Part shown: one piece after another, positions 10,839 through 40,702 of the stretch
How positions within the stretch are numbered: position 1 is the first letter of the stretch
Layout of the letters: each line of letters starts with the position of its first letter
DNA from: Okeania sp. KiyG1
Lineage (GTDB): Bacteria; Cyanobacteriota; Cyanobacteriia; Cyanobacteriales; Microcoleaceae
Assembly: GCF_014132355.1 (NCBI RefSeq)
Contig: NZ_BLZO01000129.1
Span: forward strand, 1 to 40,702
Direction: 5' to 3'
Length of the DNA stretch: 40,702 nucleotides
Program-made: the position numbers and the translations under genes
Notes under the pieces: model-generated
What the model saw: the letters and a program-made list of their open reading frames with translations, nothing else
Database searches by the model: none
Told to the model about the DNA's origin: nothing

Positions 10839-11297
10839 TTAATGAATAGTAATTGGTGGTAAATTTGGCTGAGGATTAGTAACTCTTCTCAATAATTCTT
10901 GTCTAGCTTGTTGAGGATTTTGACCATGAGGAACTTGATATAATAATCTACAAGAACCATCTTGAGGATTAGCAGCACAAATCATTGGCTGTCCATTTTT
11001 AGAAATACTGACAGTGATACTTCGATATCCATTTCTTTGTTGAGTAGATAAAATTCCAGATACTCTAGTACATCTGGTCAGAGCATCTTCTCCTGATTCG
11101 GTAAAATAATTATTAGAATTCCAGAGAATAATCGGAATATTTTGGCCTTGTTTAGTGGCTATTGTTGCTGGAGTTGCCCCTATTCTCCCACAGAAAAAAT
11201 TAGTAGTTTGAGCTTCAGCAGAACGATTATTTATAGGAAGATTTAAAAATCCAATTATTGTGGCAGCAACAATAGAAGTAAATGATAAAATTTTCAT
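10839..11297 (-). CDS. COP23-domain secreted protein
   Basis: The protein has 152 residues. Residues 1-29 form a signal peptide (hydrophobic FTSIVAATIIGFLNL, cleavage plausible after AEA). The mature part has four cysteines (36, 76, 107, 116) and the pattern F-x-C, IPIILWNS, ALTRCTRVSG, QPMICAA, SCRLLY, which is the layout of the COP23 family, named after a circadian-oscillating protein of Cyanothece. The cysteines probably form two disulfides outside the cytoplasm. The molecular role of the family is not established. Flanking DNA on both sides is repeat. Confidence 0.8.
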   Translation of the reverse strand: MKILSFTSIVAATIIGFLNLPINNRSAEAQTTNFFCGRIGATPATIATKQGQNIPIILWNSNNYFTESGEDALTRCTRVSGILSTQQRNGYRSITVSISKNGQPMICAANPQDGSCRLLYQVPHGQNPQQARQELLRRVTNPQPNLPPITIH

Positions 11298-11771
11298 TGA
11301 TTATAATCTACATAGATAACAATACTAATATTCTATAAATCTATATATAGTTCTTGACTGTCAGTAATGGCATTTAAGCAAAATTTTTTTTTAGTATACC
11401 TGGGAAATTCTGGAAGTTCTGATTATCAGTGATTCTTGTGTAGTTATCATTTCTAATTAATAAATTACTTGCTTTGCTTATATTGCTTATTCAATTTATT
11501 ATCTGCCTTAACTTCGGTTCAGGAAAACCTTCCTAATAATGGCAGTCAATCAACCAGATATAATTTGGAATAATCAATTTATCAAACAGGATTGGGTCGC
11601 GCAACCCTGCCTTAAAAGGCGAAATATTTTTGGAGAGTTGCTCAAATCCCCTACTTCCCCTCCCCTCCACGGTCGGGGAGGGGTTAGGGTGGGTTGACTT
11701 CTGACTTCTGACTTCGTTAATGGGAGTGGGTTAAAAAATAGTGATTCACTGTCAAACTAAAAACTTAATCA
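11298..11771. other. Gene-free stretch with a strong GC-rich hairpin
   Basis: A 9-base stem (CCCCTCCCC at 11657-11665, GGGGAGGGG at 11675-11683) stands out, in a dispersed sequence also seen near 23845-23875 and 19270-19300. Tandem GACTTCT heptamers follow at about 11696-11716. A repeat related to 6939-6990 lies at 11596-11660. No gene is seen. Confidence 0.5.
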
Positions 11772-11992
11772 GTAAGCATTCAGCTATTAACTATTAGCTG
11801 TTAGCTGTCAGCTCTCATAAGGAGGTTTAAATGAATATAGAGTGTTTCAGCCAGTTTTGATAGTAAGTATAAATTCTGGCTCAATTAGTAAAGCTTTTAT
11901 CTAAAACTAAAAACAATAGCTGAAGTCCGCAGTTCCGACCACAGGAGGCTAGCTGACGGCTGTTTACGCAGCATTCCGTAGGAAATGCTTAC
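11772..11992. repeat. Family A inverted-repeat element touching the stop codon of the next gene
   Basis: The element runs from GTAAGCATTCAGCTATTAAC to GGAAATGCTTAC and contains the CCTCCTG-type and GCATTCCGTAGGAAATGC modules. Its right end lies one base from the TAA (11996-11994) of the minus-strand hydrolase gene, so it forms the immediate 3' untranslated sequence of that gene. Confidence 0.75.
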
Positions 11993-11993
11993 C

Positions 11994-12686
11994 TTAGTCA
12001 AGATATTTTTGGAAAAATTCCATAGTGCGACTTTGGGCAAGATTAGTAGTTTCTAAGTTATAGTCTTTTCCTTCTATCCGAGCAAAGCCATGATTAACAT
12101 TTGGATAAGAATGTATTGTTATTAAAGGATAATTACTCAATTCAATTTTTAGTTGAGACTGAATTTCTGGAGAAACATATTCATCTTTTTCAGCAAGATG
12201 AAGCATTAATGGATTTTGAATATTAGCCGCTTCATCAAGATTTTTTTCAATGCCAACTCCATAATAACTAACGTTACATTCTGCTTGGGAACGAGTAGCC
12301 ATTAAATAAGCGAGTTTTCCTCCTAAACAAAAACCTACACTGCCAATTTTGCCAGTACATTCTGGTAATTCTTTGAGAGTTTTCATTGTAGAAATTAAAT
12401 CATCAACTCCTTGATTTTCATCAAAATTTTGGTAAAGTTCAAATGCTTTTTGCCAGTCACTCTCAGATTTATCAGTAAGTTCGATATCTGCTTCTTGGCG
12501 CCAAAATAAATCAGGGACTATTGCCACATAACCTGCTTGAGCATATTCATCAGCTATATTACGCATTACTTCATTAACTCCAAAAATTTCTTGGATAATT
12601 ATTAATCCAGGAGCAGGTGTAGAAGTAGGTGTTTTTAAGTAAGCGGAAAAAGTCTCGCCGTTATTAGTGGGAATTTTAATTTTCAT
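11994..12686 (-). CDS. Dienelactone hydrolase family protein
   Basis: The protein has 230 residues and an alpha/beta-hydrolase fold. The catalytic triad of the family is visible: Cys120 in the nucleophile elbow VGFCLGG, Asp168 in AEKDEYVS and His199 in VNHGFAR. Glu33 in IIIQEIFGVN corresponds to the conserved glutamate of the family. The sequence AGYVAIVPDLFWRQ is also typical. Family members hydrolyse cyclic or aliphatic esters such as dienelactone; the natural substrate here cannot be told from sequence. No aromatic degradation genes are nearby, so a general carboxyl-ester role is more likely. A family A repeat begins two bases after the stop codon. Confidence 0.93.
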   Translation of the reverse strand: MKIKIPTNNGETFSAYLKTPTSTPAPGLIIIQEIFGVNEVMRNIADEYAQAGYVAIVPDLFWRQEADIELTDKSESDWQKAFELYQNFDENQGVDDLISTMKTLKELPECTGKIGSVGFCLGGKLAYLMATRSQAECNVSYYGVGIEKNLDEAANIQNPLMLHLAEKDEYVSPEIQSQLKIELSNYPLITIHSYPNVNHGFARIEGKDYNLETTNLAQSRTMEFFQKYLD

Positions 12687-12946
12687 CTTGCTTAATTGAT
12701 TTGATATTGCCGTTATATTTATAGGTTACTTTAACATTAGTTAGTCAATTTAGTTAGTCTCTTGAAATAGAAACTGTGGGCTTGGGCAACCCCTGCAATA
12801 GGGAAGCTTTGAAGATGCAGAATTTTCTTTTCTCTCGATAATTTTGGTAAAAATATTATGTAGTCCTATAGATGTAATGATCAAACTTCTATAAGGCGAT
12901 ATAGTTGTCGCACTTGCTCCACCTTTCATGCAGGTTCATTTCATTC

Positions 12947-13155
12947 GTAAGCAAACAGCTATTAACTGTCAGCTAGCCTCCTGTGGAGGAACTCTGTTAA
13001 CAGCAATAAGACTCTCTCTTATGGGACAGTGTTTAAATTAAAAACTGACTTTAAGGGTAAGGGAGTCAACTTTTGTAGTAAAACAATTAAATATTGCTTT
13101 TATCCTAAACTAAAAGCAATAGTTGATAGCTGATAGCTGACGGCTGAATGCTTAC
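12947..13155. repeat. Family A inverted-repeat element with conserved core
   Basis: The left end is GTAAGCAAACAGCTATTAAC and the right end is GCTGACGGCTGAATGCTTAC. The core (ACTCTCTCTTATGGGACAGT, then GACTTTAAGGG and CAACTTTTGTAGTAA) is shared with the copy at 23626-23809, showing both come from one ancestor rather than from convergent hairpins. Flanking 12687-12946 shows no gene. Confidence 0.8.
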
Positions 13156-13301
13156 TTTCATTCTAGATTTTGACAATGAATTTATTGATTTTCAGGCAGC
13201 GAAAGATAAATTTCCTCCAGCTTGAAATAACGTGGTTTAGTCAATACATAAAATGGCACAGTTTAGAATGAAATAGCTCTGCCTTTCATGGCTGCCTAAA
13301 A

Positions 13302-13327
13302 GTAAGCATTCCGCAGGAAATGCTTAC
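13302..13327. repeat. Solo family A palindrome
   Basis: A 26-base near-perfect palindrome begins GTAAGCATTCC and ends GGAAATGCTTAC. It equals the outermost ends of family A joined with nothing between, and may be an excision or deletion product. The rest of 13156-13791 has no gene; 13525-13570 is a pyrimidine-rich tract complementary to family G. Confidence 0.6.
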
Positions 13328-13791
13328 GCCTAAAAGATATTTATAGTAAGTGCTTGATAATTTTCGGAGATGTCTATTTTGGGCATACTCTTGTTACACT
13401 AATTATTTCAGCTAAACTAATTTTTTCACTTTTATAATCTATCAATTATTCTCTTGGTTTAATCACTATACCAGTCGAACCAAAGGTTAAGAAAATTCAA
13501 AAGTTTAACACTCAGACAACGTAAAATTTTTCCTTCTTCCTTCTTCCTTCTTTCTTCTTCCTTTTCCTTTTATTCAAAAATATATTTACAATCCAAACGT
13601 AAATGCTATATATCTGAGAAATATCAAAGAGAAATATCAAAGAGTAATATCTATTTCTTAGTTGAGATTTTTGATTCCAGAAAAAATTTAACTTATTTAA
13701 GCTATTATTATTCAACTATTGAGTTAAATTGGATAAAAATTATCCATAATAAAATTAGAAAGATATTTAAGAATGGACTTCTCAAAAAAAC

Positions 13792-13820
13792 TTGACAAAA
13801 GTTATAAGTTTTGTTACAAA
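13792..13820 (+). promoter_or_regulatory. Candidate sigma-70 promoter for the oxidoreductase gene
   Basis: TTGACA (13792-13797) is separated by 17 bases from TACAAA (13815-13820). The -35 is perfect, the -10 is weak. It lies about 40 bases before the GTG start. Confidence 0.4.
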
Positions 13821-13859
13821 AATTTTAAAAATTAATATACTTTAAGAGGATTTTAGATT

Positions 13860-14888
13860 GTGAAAGTAGCGATTGTTGGTTTTGGATTTAATGCAGAGAA
13901 AGCCCATGTACCAGTATACAGAGAGCGTTCTGATATTCATCTCACAGCAGTAGTAGATCCAGTAACATCTAGGCGTGCAGCAGCGCTTCGACAATATGCA
14001 GATATCCGAGTTTATGAACAATTTAGCGATCTATTAGAAGAATATTCTAGTGAAATAGACGTAATAGATATTTGTTTACCTAATACTTTTCATGTAGAAA
14101 GTATTAAACAAGCATTAGCAGCAGATAAGCACGTCTTATGTGAAAAGCCATTAGTTTTAAATAAAGCTGAGTATTATGAATTAATCAATATAGCAAATGA
14201 ACGAAAACGTATTTTATATCCATGTCATAGTTATAAATTTGCTCCTTCAATAGTTCATGCTGCCTACTTAATTAATTCAGGTGAAATAGGAACACCTTTA
14301 TTTGCGTCATTTAATATATTTGGTGTAGGTTTTCAACCAGGTGTACGGGGAAAAGATAAAGAACTATCTGGTGGTGGTATTATGATAGACCATGGTTTAG
14401 ATGCGATTTCTGTTGCTCAAACTTTATTTGGTGGCTTCCCTCAACGTATATCTGCACATACTAGAAGTTTCAATGAAACAAATAATCAACTTGAAGATGT
14501 AGCTGTTTTTTGTTTAGATTGGGAGAGCAAATTAATCAACATTAGTGTCAGTTCTTTAGGGTCTATTCCAAAAGCTTATTACAGAATTCAGGGAACAGAG
14601 GGAGAAATTAGCATTGAGAATAATGATGTGTTTTTAAGCGTTAAAGATAAACCAGTTCAGCACATTTTTGTACCTACATATTTTGACGATCCTGGTCATA
14701 CTAATTGGTTTAATGGATTGATTGAGAATTTTCTAGATTGCGCTAATAATCCAAATACTGAACCATTCTCTTTGATGGAAGCTGGTTTAGTTCTAGAGAT
14801 AGCTGAAAAAGCTAGTCATTCTAGTAATAATGGAGGTAGTTGGATGGGAATAGAATTTACTACTAAGTCATTACAAATGATTGGTTAA
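13860..14888 (+). CDS. Gfo/Idh/MocA family NAD(P)-dependent oxidoreductase
   Basis: The protein has 342 residues. The N-terminal Rossmann fold starts VAIVGFGFNAEKAHVP (a GFG-type variant of the usual glycine motif). The family signature CEKPLVL, with Glu95, Lys96 and Pro97, is present, and GGGIMIDHGLDA holds the expected catalytic His178. The C-terminal alpha/beta domain extends to the end. Members oxidise or reduce sugars and cyclitols or related hydroxyl groups with NAD(P); the substrate cannot be assigned. The start is GTG at 13860, supported by AGAGGA about ten bases upstream and by the Rossmann fold beginning at residue 2. It stands alone between repeats. Confidence 0.93.
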   Translation: MKVAIVGFGFNAEKAHVPVYRERSDIHLTAVVDPVTSRRAAALRQYADIRVYEQFSDLLEEYSSEIDVIDICLPNTFHVESIKQALAADKHVLCEKPLVLNKAEYYELINIANERKRILYPCHSYKFAPSIVHAAYLINSGEIGTPLFASFNIFGVGFQPGVRGKDKELSGGGIMIDHGLDAISVAQTLFGGFPQRISAHTRSFNETNNQLEDVAVFCLDWESKLINISVSSLGSIPKAYYRIQGTEGEISIENNDVFLSVKDKPVQHIFVPTYFDDPGHTNWFNGLIENFLDCANNPNTEPFSLMEAGLVLEIAEKASHSSNNGGSWMGIEFTTKSLQMIG

Positions 14889-35874: not shown

Positions 35875-35951
35875 AGTTTATGGTTACTTTATAATTTTTA
35901 ATTAAGTAGACAAAACTAATAAGCATTACTTTACAGCTTAAAAACGGAAAA

Positions 35952-37217
35952 CTAATCAACACAACTTTTTTTTAACAACGGAAATAATCTCCGCAGAGCA
36001 AAAGCTATAGTCCGGGAGTGGACTAAGTTGGTAAATTTTCCCGTTTGTCCTTTGTTTTGTCCATCGGATTCGCTATTTAATTTAGCATAATGTTCATCGA
36101 ACTTGGCCTGAATCTCTAGGCCAACCTGGGAAATTAATCTTTTCTTCCCAATGGATGTCCTACTCCAGTTATAGAGTTCTGACTTTGCGATCGCAGAACC
36201 CGAACTACTAAAACTTTCTATTTGGCCACTCGACCTTTCTTCTTGGCCAAAACCCAAGCGACGTTTAAATGCTCCTTCTGATTCAAACCGACTCAGGGGG
36301 TAGCATCGGACTAGCAGCATAGCCCGTGCCATTAACCCAAACCCGAATAAATCAAATACTTCGTTATATTTTTTATACTCTGGGCGATCGTAAACTAAAG
36401 ACGATAGATTGCTCCGGAGTAACGCTACTTGAATGTGGTTATCACAGATTTGGTTGGCTAGATAGCGGGTGTGTGGGGTAATGGTTTTTCCATATTTTGG
36501 ACCAACAGAGGAATTGTAAAGGCGATTGTATTTATTCTTTCCCTTGTCTGTGTAACGCTCTCTTTGTGCGACCCAAGCAAATAACGGGGACAAGCCGTCA
36601 ACTCCGGGTTCAGAACTTAAAAAAGCAGCTTCTGGGAATGAAGTTACTAATTTAGCACGACATCTATTTATAGTGGCTGTGTTATTGGCTTTTAAGCCTT
36701 TAATGTCTAAGTATATTTCATTAATTTCCGCAATAACTCCTGGCTCGAATCGGAGAAAAGCAGTTTCCTTCTCCCAATTTTTCAGAGCGTAAGTTGCTAG
36801 AGCCAGTGCGTCGGCCTGGTCGTTTTTATCGGGGAGGCGTTCTGATTTTCGTAAATATTTAACTTCAGGATGACCGACCCACTGTACTGATACATTGTGG
36901 GTTTCAGCAATAGTCGCCCATAACTCTGAATAATTCTTACCCGTCGGTTCCAGAGCGAGACAATCAGCACCCTCGATAAATTCTACAAATTTTTCTACAC
37001 TGGCAGCATTTAAGTAAAAAGTTAGAGAGTCGGAGCGTTTCAATCTTTTGTACTTTTTAAAATGCGCGCGCAAATCCGTTGACAGCTCTGAAAGCTCCCA
37101 ACAAACCAGGGAGTTTTTGCAAACGTCCCCTCCAATTATTCTGTTTATCATGGCGATTTTACGGTTTAATAAAAAATTCCAAAATTCACAATTCGCCTGA
37201 AAGCTGTCAAATGACAA
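35952..37217 (-). CDS. IS110-like DEDD transposase/recombinase
   Basis: The protein has up to 421 residues. The N-terminal RuvC-like DEDD part is recognisable: GGDVCKNSLVCWEL (first Asp), LALEPTGKNYSELW (Glu), then VQWVGHPEVKYLRKSERLPD leading to DKNDQADALALATY (Asp, Asp). The C-terminal Tnp_20-like half has FGLMARAMLLVRCYPLSRFE, FKRRLGFGQEERSSG and a Ser-rich stretch ESFSSSGSAIAKSELYNW that could supply the catalytic serine. IS110 enzymes make and rejoin DNA ends guided by a bridge RNA. ATG 37151-37149 (MINRIIGGDV) is the start closest to the family; 37217 is the longest. It is longer and more divergent than typical IS110 enzymes. It is next to ndhF and followed upstream by an unusual operon. 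A single HIP1 site lies at about 36186. Confidence 0.75.
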   Translation of the reverse strand: MSFDSFQANCEFWNFLLNRKIAMINRIIGGDVCKNSLVCWELSELSTDLRAHFKKYKRLKRSDSLTFYLNAASVEKFVEFIEGADCLALEPTGKNYSELWATIAETHNVSVQWVGHPEVKYLRKSERLPDKNDQADALALATYALKNWEKETAFLRFEPGVIAEINEIYLDIKGLKANNTATINRCRAKLVTSFPEAAFLSSEPGVDGLSPLFAWVAQRERYTDKGKNKYNRLYNSSVGPKYGKTITPHTRYLANQICDNHIQVALLRSNLSSLVYDRPEYKKYNEVFDLFGFGLMARAMLLVRCYPLSRFESEGAFKRRLGFGQEERSSGQIESFSSSGSAIAKSELYNWSRTSIGKKRLISQVGLEIQAKFDEHYAKLNSESDGQNKGQTGKFTNLVHSRTIAFALRRLFPLLKKSCVD

Positions 37218-37395
37218 CTCAAATTACTTTCAAAACTTTGGAACCAACAACCTAGAAAGCTTGCTCATAATGCTTAAAAAGCTAAACAGCTCATATTACT
37301 TTCAAAGCAAATACTTTCTAGGATATTGCGGGCGAACCCGCGACTACCGACAACAGTTGTCGGTAGTTTCTGCACTCACCCGCGAGTGCGTCATC
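37200..37395 (-). ncRNA. Hairpin cluster upstream of the recombinase gene; bridge-RNA candidate
   Basis: This is the gap between the operon and the recombinase gene. It contains a large stem, CCTAGAAAG (37251-37259) with CTTTCTAGG (37314-37322), enclosing about 54 bases, and three compact hairpins: GCGGG-CGAA-CCCGC (about 37328-37341), ACTACCGACAAC-A-GTTGTCGGTAGT (about 37342-37367) and GCACTC..GAGTGC (about 37371-37388). A partly matching 20-base direct repeat (containing ATTACTTTCAAA) lies at about 37221 and 37294. In IS110 elements the bridge RNA is encoded in the non-coding end 5' of the recombinase gene, so the position fits. No homology proof is available. Confidence 0.4.
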
Positions 37396-37690
37396 AGGCG
37401 TTTAATCGCGTATTTAGTCTACAGCTATCTTCTTTAAAAGTGAAGTCAAACCCGTGGCTTAAAGCGTGGCATCTACTCCGCACTACCATGTGGTCGCACA
37501 TCACCTCCTCAGCCAGTTCGTCAAAAGTTATATATTTTTTTCCGTCCAGGAAGTCTAAAAGTCTGATGCAATTCTTGATAGTGGGAGTGAACAAAGAGAA
37601 AAGCAAATCCCTCTCTTTAATCTGGAGTTTATAGTATTGCGCGATACCGACGCAATTTTCTTGTATGAACACGAATACAGCATTTTTCAT
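37394..37690 (-). CDS. Small protein of the accessory operon, possible winged helix
   Basis: From ATG 37690 the protein has 98 residues (MKNAVFVFIQENCVGIAQYY...); a longer start at 37723 is possible but has no better support. GGAAAG lies about ten bases upstream. The stretch KYITFDELAEEVMCDHMVVR followed by SRCHALSHGFDFTF looks like a helix-turn-helix with a wing, so DNA binding is possible. It is the last gene of the operon before the hairpin region and recombinase. Not recognised as a named family. Confidence 0.6.
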   Translation of the reverse strand: MKNAVFVFIQENCVGIAQYYKLQIKERDLLFSLFTPTIKNCIRLLDFLDGKKYITFDELAEEVMCDHMVVRSRCHALSHGFDFTFKEDSCRLNTRLNA

Positions 37691-37778
37691 CTTGATACTT
37701 TCCTTTGGTTGGATGCTCGGCAATAGGCGATGAAACCTATTATTGAAGCTGTTCGCTTTTAGTAGCTACCAGCAAGAA

Positions 37779-38054
37779 CTAAAGAGGCTCGTCCCCTCTG
37801 ACAGTGGGGTATTTCATCACAATAGCCTTTACCTTAGAATCAGATGTCATTTTGGCATCCATTTCGGCCGCCACCTCTTCAAATGCTTCGGGGGGCATTG
37901 CCTTGATTTTTTCTGTAGCCACAGTCAACAGGTCTCGAATTATCACATTTTTATCGATATTAGACATTTTTGACAACGATTCCACGGCTAAACCGAGCAT
38001 ATAGCCATTTAAGGCGAGTTCTTTTTTCTTCCCAAGAGGTAAATCTGATAACAT
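37779..38054 (-). CDS. Small helical protein of the accessory operon
   Basis: The protein has 91 residues, soluble, helical and rich in Lys/Glu/Met (KKKELALNGYMLGLAVESLS, TVATEKIKAMPPEAFEEVAA). Its ATG overlaps the TAA of the gene before it by one base (TAATG), a sign of translational coupling. No known domain is recognised. Confidence 0.7.
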   Translation of the reverse strand: MLSDLPLGKKKELALNGYMLGLAVESLSKMSNIDKNVIIRDLLTVATEKIKAMPPEAFEEVAAEMDAKMTSDSKVKAIVMKYPTVRGDEPL

Positions 38055-38563
38055 TAGAATGGCTCCACTGTGTCGTAGACTGCTGCATCAAACACAGCCT
38101 TCATCATAGAGGATGCCAACTCATCGTTCTCCCCTTGTTTTTGTTGCTCTTGGTCGTTGATCGCTCCCTTGATGTCATCCCAGAACTCGTCGCTAATATT
38201 ATGCCTGTCGGAGATTTCTAGAATGGCTTCGTAGTCTCCTATCAGTTTTTTCAGTTCAGCCAGGCGAGGAAAGTTCTTTTTCATCTTTTCTTTTAAGATG
38301 GCTATCTCGTATTGATAAACGTCGCTCAACGTCCTCAACTCTAGGATTTTGTCATATTTGTCAGGATAGTTAAGCACCTTCAAACATTTTTCGAGTTCAA
38401 CTTTATCACTGCCAGAAGCTAACTTGGCTGCTTCTAACTTGAGTTCGTTTGCTGTTTTGTGCCAAGAGTCGTCTGCTGGCACCTCCTGTTCAAGCTCTAT
38501 CCTGATACTTGCGTACGGAACAGAGCTAGGGAAGGAGCCTCCCACTCTAACTTTTCTCTTCAT
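38054..38563 (-). CDS. Unknown soluble coiled-coil-rich protein of the accessory operon
   Basis: The protein has 169 residues. A basic, beta-like N-terminus (MKRKVRVGGSFPSSVPYASI) is followed by long helices with heptad character (about 40-130, e.g. YQYEIAILKEKMKKNFPRLA). The end is acidic. It is coupled to the next gene by a one-base overlap and follows the 63-81 residue gene by 9 bases. Not recognised. Confidence 0.7.
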   Translation of the reverse strand: MKRKVRVGGSFPSSVPYASIRIELEQEVPADDSWHKTANELKLEAAKLASGSDKVELEKCLKVLNYPDKYDKILELRTLSDVYQYEIAILKEKMKKNFPRLAELKKLIGDYEAILEISDRHNISDEFWDDIKGAINDQEQQKQGENDELASSMMKAVFDAAVYDTVEPF

Positions 38564-38572
38564 GTTCCTCTT

Positions 38573-38764
38573 TTATGAATTTGACTGTTTTAGGTGTACA
38601 GCAGTGATAGCACCTGCTATTCTAGGGTATCTGGTAGCGAGTATTGCTATCAGTTTATTGACAAGAGCTGTTGCTCCCAACTTAGTTTTTGTCATTGAAG
38701 CAATTCCGCGTAGCAGCACTTCAATTGCCAAGAAAATTTCAAGGGGTGTCAACGTTATTGTCAT
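38573..38764 (-). CDS. Small hydrophobic-helix protein of the accessory operon
   Basis: Starting at ATG 38764 (MTITLTPLEIFLAIEVLLRG) the product has 63 residues; a longer version from 38818 (81 residues) is possible. The start overlaps the end of the preceding gene by 26 bases in another frame. Helices with hydrophobic faces alternate with Lys/Arg/Thr, more like a small soluble bundle than a membrane protein. Unknown family. Confidence 0.55.
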   Translation of the reverse strand: MTITLTPLEIFLAIEVLLRGIASMTKTKLGATALVNKLIAILATRYPRIAGAITAVHLKQSNS

Positions 38765-39053
38765 CGGAGGTTGACCCGCCAGGAATGTCACCACCTTTCG
38801 ATAGTTGTTCATGTGCATACTTCTCCACCATCTCCATGATTGAGTTTGCGAGGTTATTTTTAAATTCTTGTGAGTATTGTTGATGCCTGGATATAGCTAG
38901 TTTGAGAAACGCTGAAGTAGCATCTTCATCTGACTGCTTTTTGATATACGCCATTGTCTCAGGGTTTTGTACCCTAAGAGTCGAAACAACTATCTTAAAA
39001 GCGAACATCAATGTGACAATACTTTTATGTTCTAACCTTGTGTCTTCTGTCAT
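38739..39053 (-). CDS. Unknown small protein of the accessory operon
   Basis: The protein has 104 residues. It starts MTEDTRLEHKSIVTLMFAFK and continues as helical sequence (SDEDATSAFLKLAISRHQQY, FKNNLANSIMEMVEKYAHEQ) with an acidic, Gly/Ser/Asn-rich tail. It starts one base after the stop of the 201-residue gene, supporting co-transcription. Not recognised. Confidence 0.7.
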   Translation of the reverse strand: MTEDTRLEHKSIVTLMFAFKIVVSTLRVQNPETMAYIKKQSDEDATSAFLKLAISRHQQYSQEFKNNLANSIMEMVEKYAHEQLSKGGDIPGGSTSDDNNVDTP

Positions 39054-39054
39054 T

Positions 39055-39660
39055 TTATTTAGGTGGTGAACGACTACCTCCGCTTATGCTCGGAGTTCGG
39101 CTTCCCATACTCAGGGCACAACCATACTCCAGTCTAAATGGTGGTGGCAATGAATAAGTAGGCAGTCGTTCAACTTCGACCATATTGCTAGCCCACGACT
39201 GCGGTGACGCAAGAGGTACTGCTACAATCATGGATTCATCATGCTCTACTGGCTGTGGACCAAATGCATACTCCCTAACAGAAGCGACAAGAGCTAAATA
39301 AAGGTGTTTATGTGGCAGCGATCGTGATTTTGTCCGTCTGCCATCGCCAGGAAGTGTATTATCTTCCTGCGGTGGTGTCAAAGGTTCTGTTTGCGGTATA
39401 TTTTCTTCTTCCGGTGGCGGTGGAGGACAGTTCGGTGGAGCTACTATCACTGGAGGCGCAGGAGGAACAAAATCAATAATATTGTTTAGTTCCGCTTGTT
39501 CAACAATAGCTTTAACTATTGGCAAGTTTTGATAGCAGCAATATTTTTTGTAGGCAGCTACCCAAGTTGCCCGGCATCGCAAGTCGCCAAACTCAGTTCT
39601 AACCTGCTCTGGCCAAACGCCTACACTGACTAGCTCTCGCTTCATCTCAATTAACTTCAC
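39055..39660 (-). CDS. Pro-rich protein of the accessory operon
   Basis: The protein has 201 residues. The N-terminal third is folded-looking (KRELVSVGVWPEQVRTEFGD, CRATWVAAYKKYCCYQNLPI). The middle is a polyproline region (VPPAPPVIVAPPNCPPPPPE). The end is Ser/Pro-rich with SISGGSRSPPK. The first four bases overlap the gene upstream (39657-39965). A linker-type or DNA-associated role is possible but not shown. Higher GC and low-complexity sequence distinguish it from chromosomal genes nearby. Confidence 0.65.
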   Translation of the reverse strand: MKLIEMKRELVSVGVWPEQVRTEFGDLRCRATWVAAYKKYCCYQNLPIVKAIVEQAELNNIIDFVPPAPPVIVAPPNCPPPPPEEENIPQTEPLTPPQEDNTLPGDGRRTKSRSLPHKHLYLALVASVREYAFGPQPVEHDESMIVAVPLASPQSWASNMVEVERLPTYSLPPPFRLEYGCALSMGSRTPSISGGSRSPPK

Positions 39661-39965
39661 TTCCTTGATTCCCTCCTTGTTTTTCCTGGATAAGTGTTCC
39701 CGTAGTCGTCATACCGATGTCTAGCCCTCACCTCCTTCTGCTGGCGCTTGTAAACTCTCTCCTTTTCATGCTTGAATTTATAAGGAAGATTCTTCTTAGT
39801 AAGGGATGGGGTCGTCCAATAGTTCGTCGAACTGATTAGGCGGCAATATCTCTCTGCTGCTTGGGCACCCGCGCTCCCCATTATCAGTTTGTACTGTCGA
39901 TATTGTTCCGGTGTCATCTTCTGTGTTATGTTGGTCTTGTCCTTGATTCTCAGCGGGGGCCTCAT
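39657..39965 (-). CDS. Small basic protein overlapping its upstream neighbour
   Basis: The longest frame has 102 residues. Internal starts at about 39917 (MTPEQYRQYKLIMGSAGAQA) or 39878 (MGSAGAQAAERYC) are as likely. The C-terminal half is strongly basic (KFKHEKERVYKRQQKEVRAR then HRYDDYGNTYPGKT), suggesting nucleic-acid binding. It overlaps the 3' end of the 279-residue gene in a different frame by 83-170 bases depending on the start. The family is unknown. Confidence 0.55.
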   Translation of the reverse strand: MRPPLRIKDKTNITQKMTPEQYRQYKLIMGSAGAQAAERYCRLISSTNYWTTPSLTKKNLPYKFKHEKERVYKRQQKEVRARHRYDDYGNTYPGKTRRESRK

Positions 39966-40635
39966 CCTCTGGAGTTGGTTCTTCTTCTTGAGGCTCCGAT
40001 TCTTCTTCTCTGGATAGTTGCTCCAAGTACTCTTGAACCGATAATCCTAATCTATCCGCTTTTTTCTTAAGTGCTTGCCAAACCTCAAATGGTAACTTTA
40101 CTTGCTTGGTTTTCTTGATGGAGTCTGGGTCTAGTACCGCCTCAATGTAATGTGCGGTCATTTGCTCCCCCTCTGTAGCAGCCATATCTATACATTTTTG
40201 CCAATCCGCCGTGATATCCCCATCAATTCCTTCCTTCTCGGACTTGGCACGCAAGGCTGAAGCTTGAGCTACACAGTTGGGTAACTTCTGAAATCCTTCA
40301 CAGAGTAAGTGCCAACCTGTCATGGCTGCTTCCATTAGCTGTTTGCATCGCCAAACCTTTTTGCCTATTTCTTTGAGGCAGTAGTCTTGAAAAGTTCTGT
40401 ACCCCAAGCAACGATAGAGTTTATAGATTTGGAATGCTCTCAAAATCATTCCCTCTTTAATATATGCATGGCCTGCTAGTTTGGCTTCAAAATGCAGTGT
40501 TTCAATAGCCTGCTTACCTTCTCTCCAGACTTCGTGTTCAAACAACTGGCAGAAGGTGTTAAGACAATCACCCGCCCAATCTGGTAAAGGCATCTCGTCT
40601 TGGTTTGGTGGGTATGTAAAATTAGAATCAACCAT
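39796..40635 (-). CDS. Putative regulatory protein with ribbon-helix-helix segment, first gene of the accessory operon in this window
   Basis: The protein has 279 residues. The N-terminal 150 residues are helical with CLGYRTFQDYCLKEIGKKVW, LPNCVAQASALRAKSEKEGI and DWQKCIDMAATEGEQMTAHY, which resemble a pattern in phage and plasmid regulators (helix, LP..QA..L, W...A..EG...TA..). Residues about 178-208 (VKLPFEVWQALKKKADRLGL, then SVQEYLEQL) look like a ribbon-helix-helix DNA-binding unit. The tail is acidic and disordered. It is likely a DNA-binding partition or regulatory protein of a mobile element. This is inference from pattern, not from a confirmed domain. Confidence 0.6.
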   Translation of the reverse strand: MVDSNFTYPPNQDEMPLPDWAGDCLNTFCQLFEHEVWREGKQAIETLHFEAKLAGHAYIKEGMILRAFQIYKLYRCLGYRTFQDYCLKEIGKKVWRCKQLMEAAMTGWHLLCEGFQKLPNCVAQASALRAKSEKEGIDGDITADWQKCIDMAATEGEQMTAHYIEAVLDPDSIKKTKQVKLPFEVWQALKKKADRLGLSVQEYLEQLSREEESEPQEEEPTPEDEAPAENQGQDQHNTEDDTGTISTVQTDNGERGCPSSREILPPNQFDELLDDPIPY

Positions 40636-40702
40636 GATGTTAGCGTTAAATAGTTTGCCTTTTAGGTAGGGGTTCGCTTTTAACTACCCCCAAAAGTTCT
40701 AT
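40636..40702. other. Upstream edge of the accessory operon
   Basis: The 67 bases before the first visible operon gene contain ACCCCTACC and GGGGGTAG on the minus strand. No promoter can be judged, since the element may continue beyond the window. Confidence 0.3.

Follow-up and report, generated by a model that had tools for sequence, protein, structure and literature searches.

A candidate bridge-RNA-guided integration system with a hammerhead motif in a phage-like element of Okeania

The window analyzed here is the complete 40,702-nucleotide contig NZ_BLZO01000129.1 (contig C129) from the 10.98-Mb genome of the cyanobacterium Okeania sp. KiyG1. Upstream of ndhF it carries nine open reading frames (ORFs) on the reverse strand, namely that of an IS110-like recombinase (35952-37217) and eight others between 37394 and 40635. 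This arrangement, with its one-base TAATG coupling at 38054 and several gene overlaps, had been pointed out in a preliminary description made from the letters alone, and is borne out by the ORF list and the sequence. A structured gap of about 240 nucleotides between the operon and the recombinase is absent from that description, and proved to be the most important part of the locus. The gap includes a type I hammerhead ribozyme motif followed by an RNA that resembles the bridge RNAs of IS110 elements. Sequence comparisons make it likely that these parts belong to an IS110-type, bridge-RNA-guided integration system of a phage-like element, in which the guide RNA would owe its 5' end to the ribozyme. 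The contig stops within this element.

Recombinase and guide RNA

The features that bear on integration are the following, with positions in the window.

35920..35932, no strand assigned: left junction, composed of the left target TAAGC, the shared core ATT (35925-35927) and the element end ACTTT (empty versus occupied sites)
35952..37151, reverse strand: IS110-type DEDD recombinase, gene g9 (Pfam, alignment of relatives, PDB profile match, ATG position)
37179..37341, reverse strand: bridge-RNA-like guide RNA (fold and aligned relatives; cutting by the ribozyme at 37342/37341 would give its 5' end)
37179..37241, reverse strand: donor-binding loop, with the right donor guide (RDG) AAAGTAAT at 37223-37230 and the left donor guide (LDG) AGG(C)GAATT at 37190-37198
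37251..37322, reverse strand: target-binding loop, with the left target guide (LTG) TAAGCATT at 37269-37276, covering left target and core, and the right target guide (RTG) AAAGTAAT at 37295-37302
37339..37400, reverse strand: type I hammerhead motif with CUGAUGA, GAAA, GUC and three stems (motif scanner, pair types)
39395..40702, no strand assigned: overlap with contig C181, 99.8% identical over 1310 bases (contig comparison)

The recombinase ORF begins with TTG in the ORF list, and an ATG is present at 37151. Its earlier assignment as an IS110-like DEDD protein holds. The protein matches PF01548 above the Pfam cut-off (E 8e-8) and PF02371 below it (E 0.003), and a profile of its family matches the structures of ISCro4 (9t56, E 6e-6) and IS621 (8wt6, E 7e-4) in PDB. 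Residues D8, E67, D110, D113 and S307-G308 are invariant in 11 aligned relatives; the roles of these residues follow the accessible part of PMC11208158. The window protein has both the RuvC-like DEDD domain and the Tnp domain with its catalytic serine that define IS110 family recombinases, and its nearest named matches are from Okeania.

The RNA encoded between the hammerhead motif and the recombinase has the layout of a bridge RNA, in which a 5' hairpin is followed by two long stems with internal loops. The fold of positions 37146-37341 has a z score of -4.84, and none of 200 shuffled sequences is as stable. The LTG is identical to the left flank at all eight positions, and the RDG is identical to the left end of the element. 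A consensus fold of 20 guide RNAs comprises nine pairs, seven of which show two-sided changes; it is short because loop lengths vary.

Element ends and guide matches

The preliminary description had proposed to find the boundaries by comparison with an unoccupied site upstream of ndhF, and nine other ndhF-upstream regions were fetched for this comparison. Seven of these (in G195, G197, G198, G209, G202, G153 and G206) are empty, and match the window up to 35927, where ATT is followed by CTTACA (CTGACA in G202). In the occupied sites (KiyG1 itself, G196 and G199) the sequence changes after the core, so that ATT is followed by ACTTTACA. The empty sites place one end of the element at 35927/35928. 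The alignment of G199 at the ndhF junction is identical to that of Okeania SIO1I7, and the two are probably one strain. The sequence that forms the right flank in empty sites is found on contig C42 in KiyG1 and on C64 in G196, preceded in both by CTAGGGAATT; the search for this flank was blurred by repeats within the query. As judged by these alignments, the element starts at 35928, is bounded by a shared ATT, and extends beyond the end of the contig.

Contig C181 continues past the overlap with a short tyrosine recombinase (C181:4397-4993), unrecognized genes, and a peptidase of C39 type that matches a family of phage endolysins. If C181 represents the same copy, the element would measure about 20 kb. 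All three occupied genomes have the gene of this tyrosine recombinase, the element's integrase gene, at 84-100% identity, and the three empty genomes of the genus lack it; its paralogues (at 51%, with one partial paralogue at 40%) occur in occupied genomes only. Two further observations concern the contigs near this locus. A deletion derivative of the element that includes its right end lies at locus L116 on contig C42 (reverse strand, 10853-14354). A transposase fragment at 16346-17215 of C181 is common to C42 at 99.6% identity. Both observations point to rearranged copies near ndhF.

IS110 elements are normally small and carry the recombinase as their sole gene, and a simple IS110 insertion beside an unrelated chromosomal operon would accord with this pattern. 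The preliminary description had named such an insertion, with ends that exclude the operon, as what would overturn its own proposal. The empty-site data contradict this explanation, which almost certainly does not apply. One end of the element lies beyond the recombinase stop codon, and the other is found on different contigs, past the operon. Among seven pairs of copies within single genomes, five share stretches spanning 8-15 kb, and the other two share little or nothing. Five relatives with both ends defined measure 8.3, 8.9, 12.8, 13.1 and 15.4 kb, and so depart from the small, recombinase-only form, as does the window's element in reaching past the operon. The element ends, together with the guide matches described below, support the earlier suggestion of a larger RNA-guided element with passengers, or of a phage-derived island that uses an IS110-type enzyme. 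The qualification is that the eight-gene operon is one arm of the larger element and not itself the RNA-guided part.

Guide matches recur across relatives of the recombinase. Junctions were sought by a rule that uses the donor guide only, which gave a junction in 36 of 64 recombinase records, 35 of them scorable. The LTG is exact (at least 5 nucleotides plus the 3-bp core) in 28 of the 35 scorable records and for 25 of 32 distinct left flanks. Of 816 cross-pairs in which the core agrees, none matches in this way, and of 6977 random flanks, 23 do. The RDG equals the element end over 8 nucleotides in 34 of the 36 junctions, which were chosen by that match, so that this count is not independent. 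A motif for the far end, derived from pairs of copies within one genome (the G372 pair gives it as GAATCCCC), is present upstream in 11 of 16 elements, and in 10 of these 11 the RTG fits the adjoining flank (at least 5 nucleotides plus core); of 5365 background positions, 26 match, a number that includes these 10. The elements G168c1, G168c2 and G020 are examples whose guides fit. Where element ends are known, the LDG fits with one bulged base. For the group of relatives, the guides thus match both the target and the element ends around a shared core, as in a bridge RNA.

An empty site can be predicted by joining the two flanks of an element with a single core. For the element on KiyG1 contig C71, 15 of 19 other genomes show a match that spans the predicted joint (70-99% identity), and for element G168c2, 13 of 38 genomes do. 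The site predicted for G372c1 is matched in 17 of 25, a weaker case in that only 7-31 nucleotides of the far flank take part. On these sequence matches, the locus is part of a phage-like element with a shared 3-bp core at its ends, and the guides of the RNA upstream of its recombinase match integration sites and element ends across relatives.

The hammerhead motif and proposed production of the guide RNA

The hammerhead motif in the window conforms to type I, with CUGANGA, GAAA, an A15.1-U16.1 pair, an NUH cleavage triplet and three stems. Stem I has only 3 bp, and the core contains the stop codon of gene g8. Applied to 61 upstream regions, each 200 nucleotides or longer (one locus counted twice), a scanner that demands the conserved core and three stems finds the motif in 33, compared with 1 of 1220 dinucleotide shuffles. 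The 31 distinct motifs show up to six pair types per position of stems II and III. This variety is the informative part, because pairing over the initial three to four positions of every stem is already a requirement of the scanner. At the positions that follow, pairs are present in 30, 30 and 28 of the 31 motifs for stems II and III, and in 24 of 31 for stem I. Of the 31 motifs, 27 have GUC as cleavage triplet.

When 388 cyanobacterial genomes are searched with a pattern drawn from these motifs, which the window's own hammerhead does not fit, 19 of them give a total of 26 matches; a reversed control gives one. An IS110-type gene lies 184-543 nucleotides downstream of the hammerhead in 24 of the 26 matches; one of the other two is at a contig edge after guide-like sequence, and one has no IS110-type gene. 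Inspection by eye also reveals a hammerhead-like motif missed by the scanner upstream of the IS110 gene at loci L056, L057, L058, L059 and L061, where stem II looks very long and branched. At L153, L154, L155, L156, L165 and L167, another hairpin, reading CTCAGCAACGGGCGCGG..CCGCGTCG..TGCTGAGTGTGTCC in several of them, is found by eye where the guide RNA begins. This hairpin could be another processing element.

These features suggest how the guide RNA might be made. Transcription of the operon would run into the guide RNA stretch, and the hammerhead would cut itself after GUC, which would set the 5' end of the guide. The first bases of the guide (GCGGG..) would form its 5' hairpin in competition with stem I of the ribozyme. 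The downstream cleavage product would then serve as both guide and message, with the recombinase translated from it. Once bound by the recombinase, the guide RNA would pair with the chromosomal target and with the junction of the circular form, and the element would integrate. The guide RNA of IS621 starts at a promoter formed when the element ends join, according to the part of PMC11208160 available. A promoter of this kind is unlikely here, because in the bounded relatives some 7-14 kb separate the far end from the guide RNA, which adjoins the recombinase. For a long RNA in the seekRNA paper (PMC11187229), the transposase is considered the likely agent of further processing, in the accessible portion. 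Phage-like elements of cyanobacteria probably have a self-contained RNA-guided integration module in which the hammerhead frees the bridge RNA from a polycistronic phage transcript, with no need of a joined-end promoter. If so, the guide RNA could be made from the integrated or the viral form, one class of the hammerheads that bacteria have close to phage recombinases would gain a role, and the family would constitute naturally reprogrammed large-cargo recombinases with 5+3-nucleotide guides.

Alternatively, the hammerhead might act as an insulator between the cargo operon and the message of the recombinase, or destabilize one half of the transcript, while the guide RNA arises from its own promoter as in IS621. 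Many bacterial hammerheads are located near integrase genes with no clear role, as noted in the available part of PMC3088659. The position of the predicted cut argues for guide processing instead: in the window fold it coincides with the base at which the 5' hairpin begins, and the same is seen by eye in many aligned relatives (their rows having been trimmed to the predicted site). Also, the 184-543 nucleotides by which the pattern matches precede the recombinase domain are a spacing that suits a guide RNA. The insulation model is unlikely.

Several observations weigh against a ribozyme-processed guide that directs integration of this element. At the gathering score, Rfam finds no hammerhead in 18 loci, and at E values up to 10 it finds in 11 loci only a single Hammerhead_3 match, of 21.6 bits, at one locus. 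The hammerhead scanner fails in 28 of the 61 upstream regions, and some of these scanner-negative relatives (for example G372, G319 and G229) have another hairpin in the hammerhead's place. The junction rule yields nothing in 28 of the 64 records, the LTG fails in 7 of the 35 scorable ones (four of these by one mismatch in six), 5 of the 16 elements have no far-end motif, and G102 has the motif with no RTG match by script. As judged by eye, the guides of the L008 copy do not fit, and those of the copy on KiyG1 contig C187 fit in part only. In the window itself, the LDG pairs with the right end AGGGAATT only with one bulged base, and there is no match between the RTG and the right flank. Contig C16 holds the right flank in G199, where the element end was not seen adjoining it. 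Finally, the size of about 20 kb depends on joining contigs that overlap at 99.8%, at a locus that is rearranged.

The RTG of the window (37295-37302) is the same as its RDG (37223-37230), and SIO1I7 shows the same identity; the target loop thus fits the left junction and not the empty site. The right target guide of L008 is also that of the window. The window copy may be decayed or reprogrammed, given this identity and the misfit to the right flank. If it is decayed, the anatomy described here would be real in relatives, and the copy in KiyG1 would be immobile because of this identity of guides and the rearrangement of its locus. The deletion derivative on contig C42 is consistent with decay, and a single site common to three genomes of the genus fits inheritance. 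The recombinase frame is nevertheless open with its catalytic residues present, and the cargo proteins are open and 42-75% conserved in SIO1I7. Decay of this copy is a serious possibility, to which we give somewhat less than an even chance. In the C187 copy, the recombinase frame is broken, and the far end was not found.

Cargo genes and comparison with known systems

The eight cargo genes of the window are all on the reverse strand.

37394..37723, reverse strand: g8, 109 amino acids, possible winged helix (Pfam match below cut-off; homologue in L005 at 36%)
37779..38054, reverse strand: g7, 91 amino acids, unrecognized (ORF list, homologue comparison)
38054..38563, reverse strand: g6, 169 amino acids, unrecognized (ORF list, homologue comparison)
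38573..38818, reverse strand: g5, 81 amino acids, unrecognized (ORF list, homologue comparison)
38739..39053, reverse strand: g4, 104 amino acids, unrecognized (ORF list, homologue comparison)
39055..39660, reverse strand: g3, 201 amino acids, unrecognized, with homologues in the C71 and C187 elements (homologue comparison, protein clustering)
39657..39965, reverse strand: g2, 102 amino acids, unrecognized (ORF list, homologue comparison)
39796..40635, reverse strand: g1, 279 amino acids, probable DNA-binding protein (weak ribbon-helix-helix matches)

For every one of the nine ORFs but g8, SIO1I7 (locus L004) has a homologue; these are arranged in the same order and beside the same ndhF-ndhD genes, and amino-acid identity is 88% for the recombinase and 42-75% across the seven cargo genes. 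Most of the ORFs are real genes rather than chance occurrences, because eight of the nine have these same-order homologues. The proposal to look for the gene order in other genomes was followed, and among the loci fetched, synteny of the operon extends to this one other genome only. A ribbon-helix-helix fold had been suggested for the 279-residue protein and a winged helix for the 109-residue protein. Both suggestions find weak matches that fall below Pfam cut-offs (NikA-like and MatP_C for the former, HTH_Mga for the latter). An AlphaFold model of g1 from the single sequence, with a predicted local distance difference test (pLDDT) score of 46, was too poor for use. Homologues of g1 occur at seven places in the KiyG1 genome, itself and the overlapping contig C181 included. 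On three KiyG1 contigs that carry g1 homologues (C36, C157 and C128), the recombinase search found nothing, which qualifies the earlier interpretation.

Protein clustering was used to compare 13 elements, the limits of three of them (the window's, C187 and G113) being set by hand. Three elements (C71, G113 and G372c3) have Zot-like and Rep genes in common, and are inovirus-like on this account; Pfam supports Zot and Rep_trans in G113 and Rep_trans in C71, and the assignment of G372c3 is by clustering only. The C71 element is 12.8 kb long (G000:C71, about 130837-143592) and interrupts a stretch of host genes; its RTG fits, and its LTG has one mismatch. The other 10 elements, including the window's, carry a short tyrosine recombinase and unrecognized cargo, whose proteins are perhaps structural. 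No Zot-like ATPase or Rep was found among the clusters of the window's element, the extent of which is only partly known, and it does not group with Inoviridae-like elements on this basis. A large protein of 580-936 amino acids (L074, 13110-15647, and relatives) is found in 5 of the 13 elements, which are possibly an undescribed group of viruses or satellites. Neither the recombinase nor g1 has a match in 50,697 phage records, and a conserved cargo protein that accompanies the large protein has no match among phage records. The integrase of the C187 element has 13 phage matches, all below 60% identity. A plasmid search gave two partial matches, and IMG/VR gave no confirmed relative by single sequence or profile.

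Because the short tyrosine recombinase is found in 10 of the 13 compared elements and in all three occupied genomes, it might be this enzyme, encoded on C181, that integrates the element, in which case the IS110 gene and its RNA would be a nested insertion at one end. However, the guides fit element ends where no tyrosine recombinase is present, at both ends of C71 (with the LTG mismatch) and at the far end of G372c3. Moreover, the shared core is only 3 bp, and in the 36 junctions found no more than about 0.4 kb separates the IS110 stop codon from the element end. Integration by the tyrosine recombinase is very improbable beside RNA-guided integration by the IS110-type enzyme.

The bridge-RNA recombinases in the surveyed literature move small insertion sequences, whereas here phage-like elements of 8-15 kb are apparently integrated. 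The natural variety of targets (the 35 scorable records have 32 different left flanks) bears on the development of tools for inserting large DNA. Searches of the open literature, a scope outside which most subscription journals and preprint servers fall, found no report that combines a hammerhead with IS110 or bridge RNA. Searches on inoviruses or filamentous phages with IS110, on bridge RNA with prophages, and on hammerheads with transposases in cyanobacteria found nothing on the combination there either. As far as this literature shows, the ribozyme coupling is the new part.

The system resembles IS621, ISCro4 and the seekRNA of ISEc21 in its recombinase, which has DEDD and serine residues, and in the RNA upstream of the recombinase gene. 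As in IS110 bridge RNAs, the RNA has a hairpin at its 5' end, a target loop and a donor loop, guides that flank a short shared core, and one discontiguous donor pairing. Unlike IS621-type elements, these elements are 8 kb and more in size with many cargo genes, the guide RNA is internal rather than at the joined ends, and a hammerhead motif stands at the 5' end of the guide. Also, the core of IS621-type elements is CT, whereas here it is ATT, TTT or TTC, with guides of 5+3 nucleotides.

IS110-type genes were reportedly described at the ends of filamentous prophages by Kawai in 2005. An IS110-type gene is found at one end of the filamentous prophages Nf of Neisseria and phiOH16/Zuza of Thermus, according to the accessible part of PMC11437467, which in that part mentions neither guide RNA nor ribozyme. 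The elements described here share this placement and, in 3 of the 13, Zot-like and Rep genes; they differ from these prophages in their cyanobacterial hosts, and 10 of the 13, the window's included, have different cargo.

Bacterial hammerheads near prophage integrases have the same core, stems and phage context in the part of PMC3088659 available, which in 2011 called their function unclear. The present elements suggest a concrete role for such ribozymes. Unlike the hammerheads described in that part of the paper, the motif here is located directly 5' of an IS110 guide RNA, and this placement suggests that it has a functional role.

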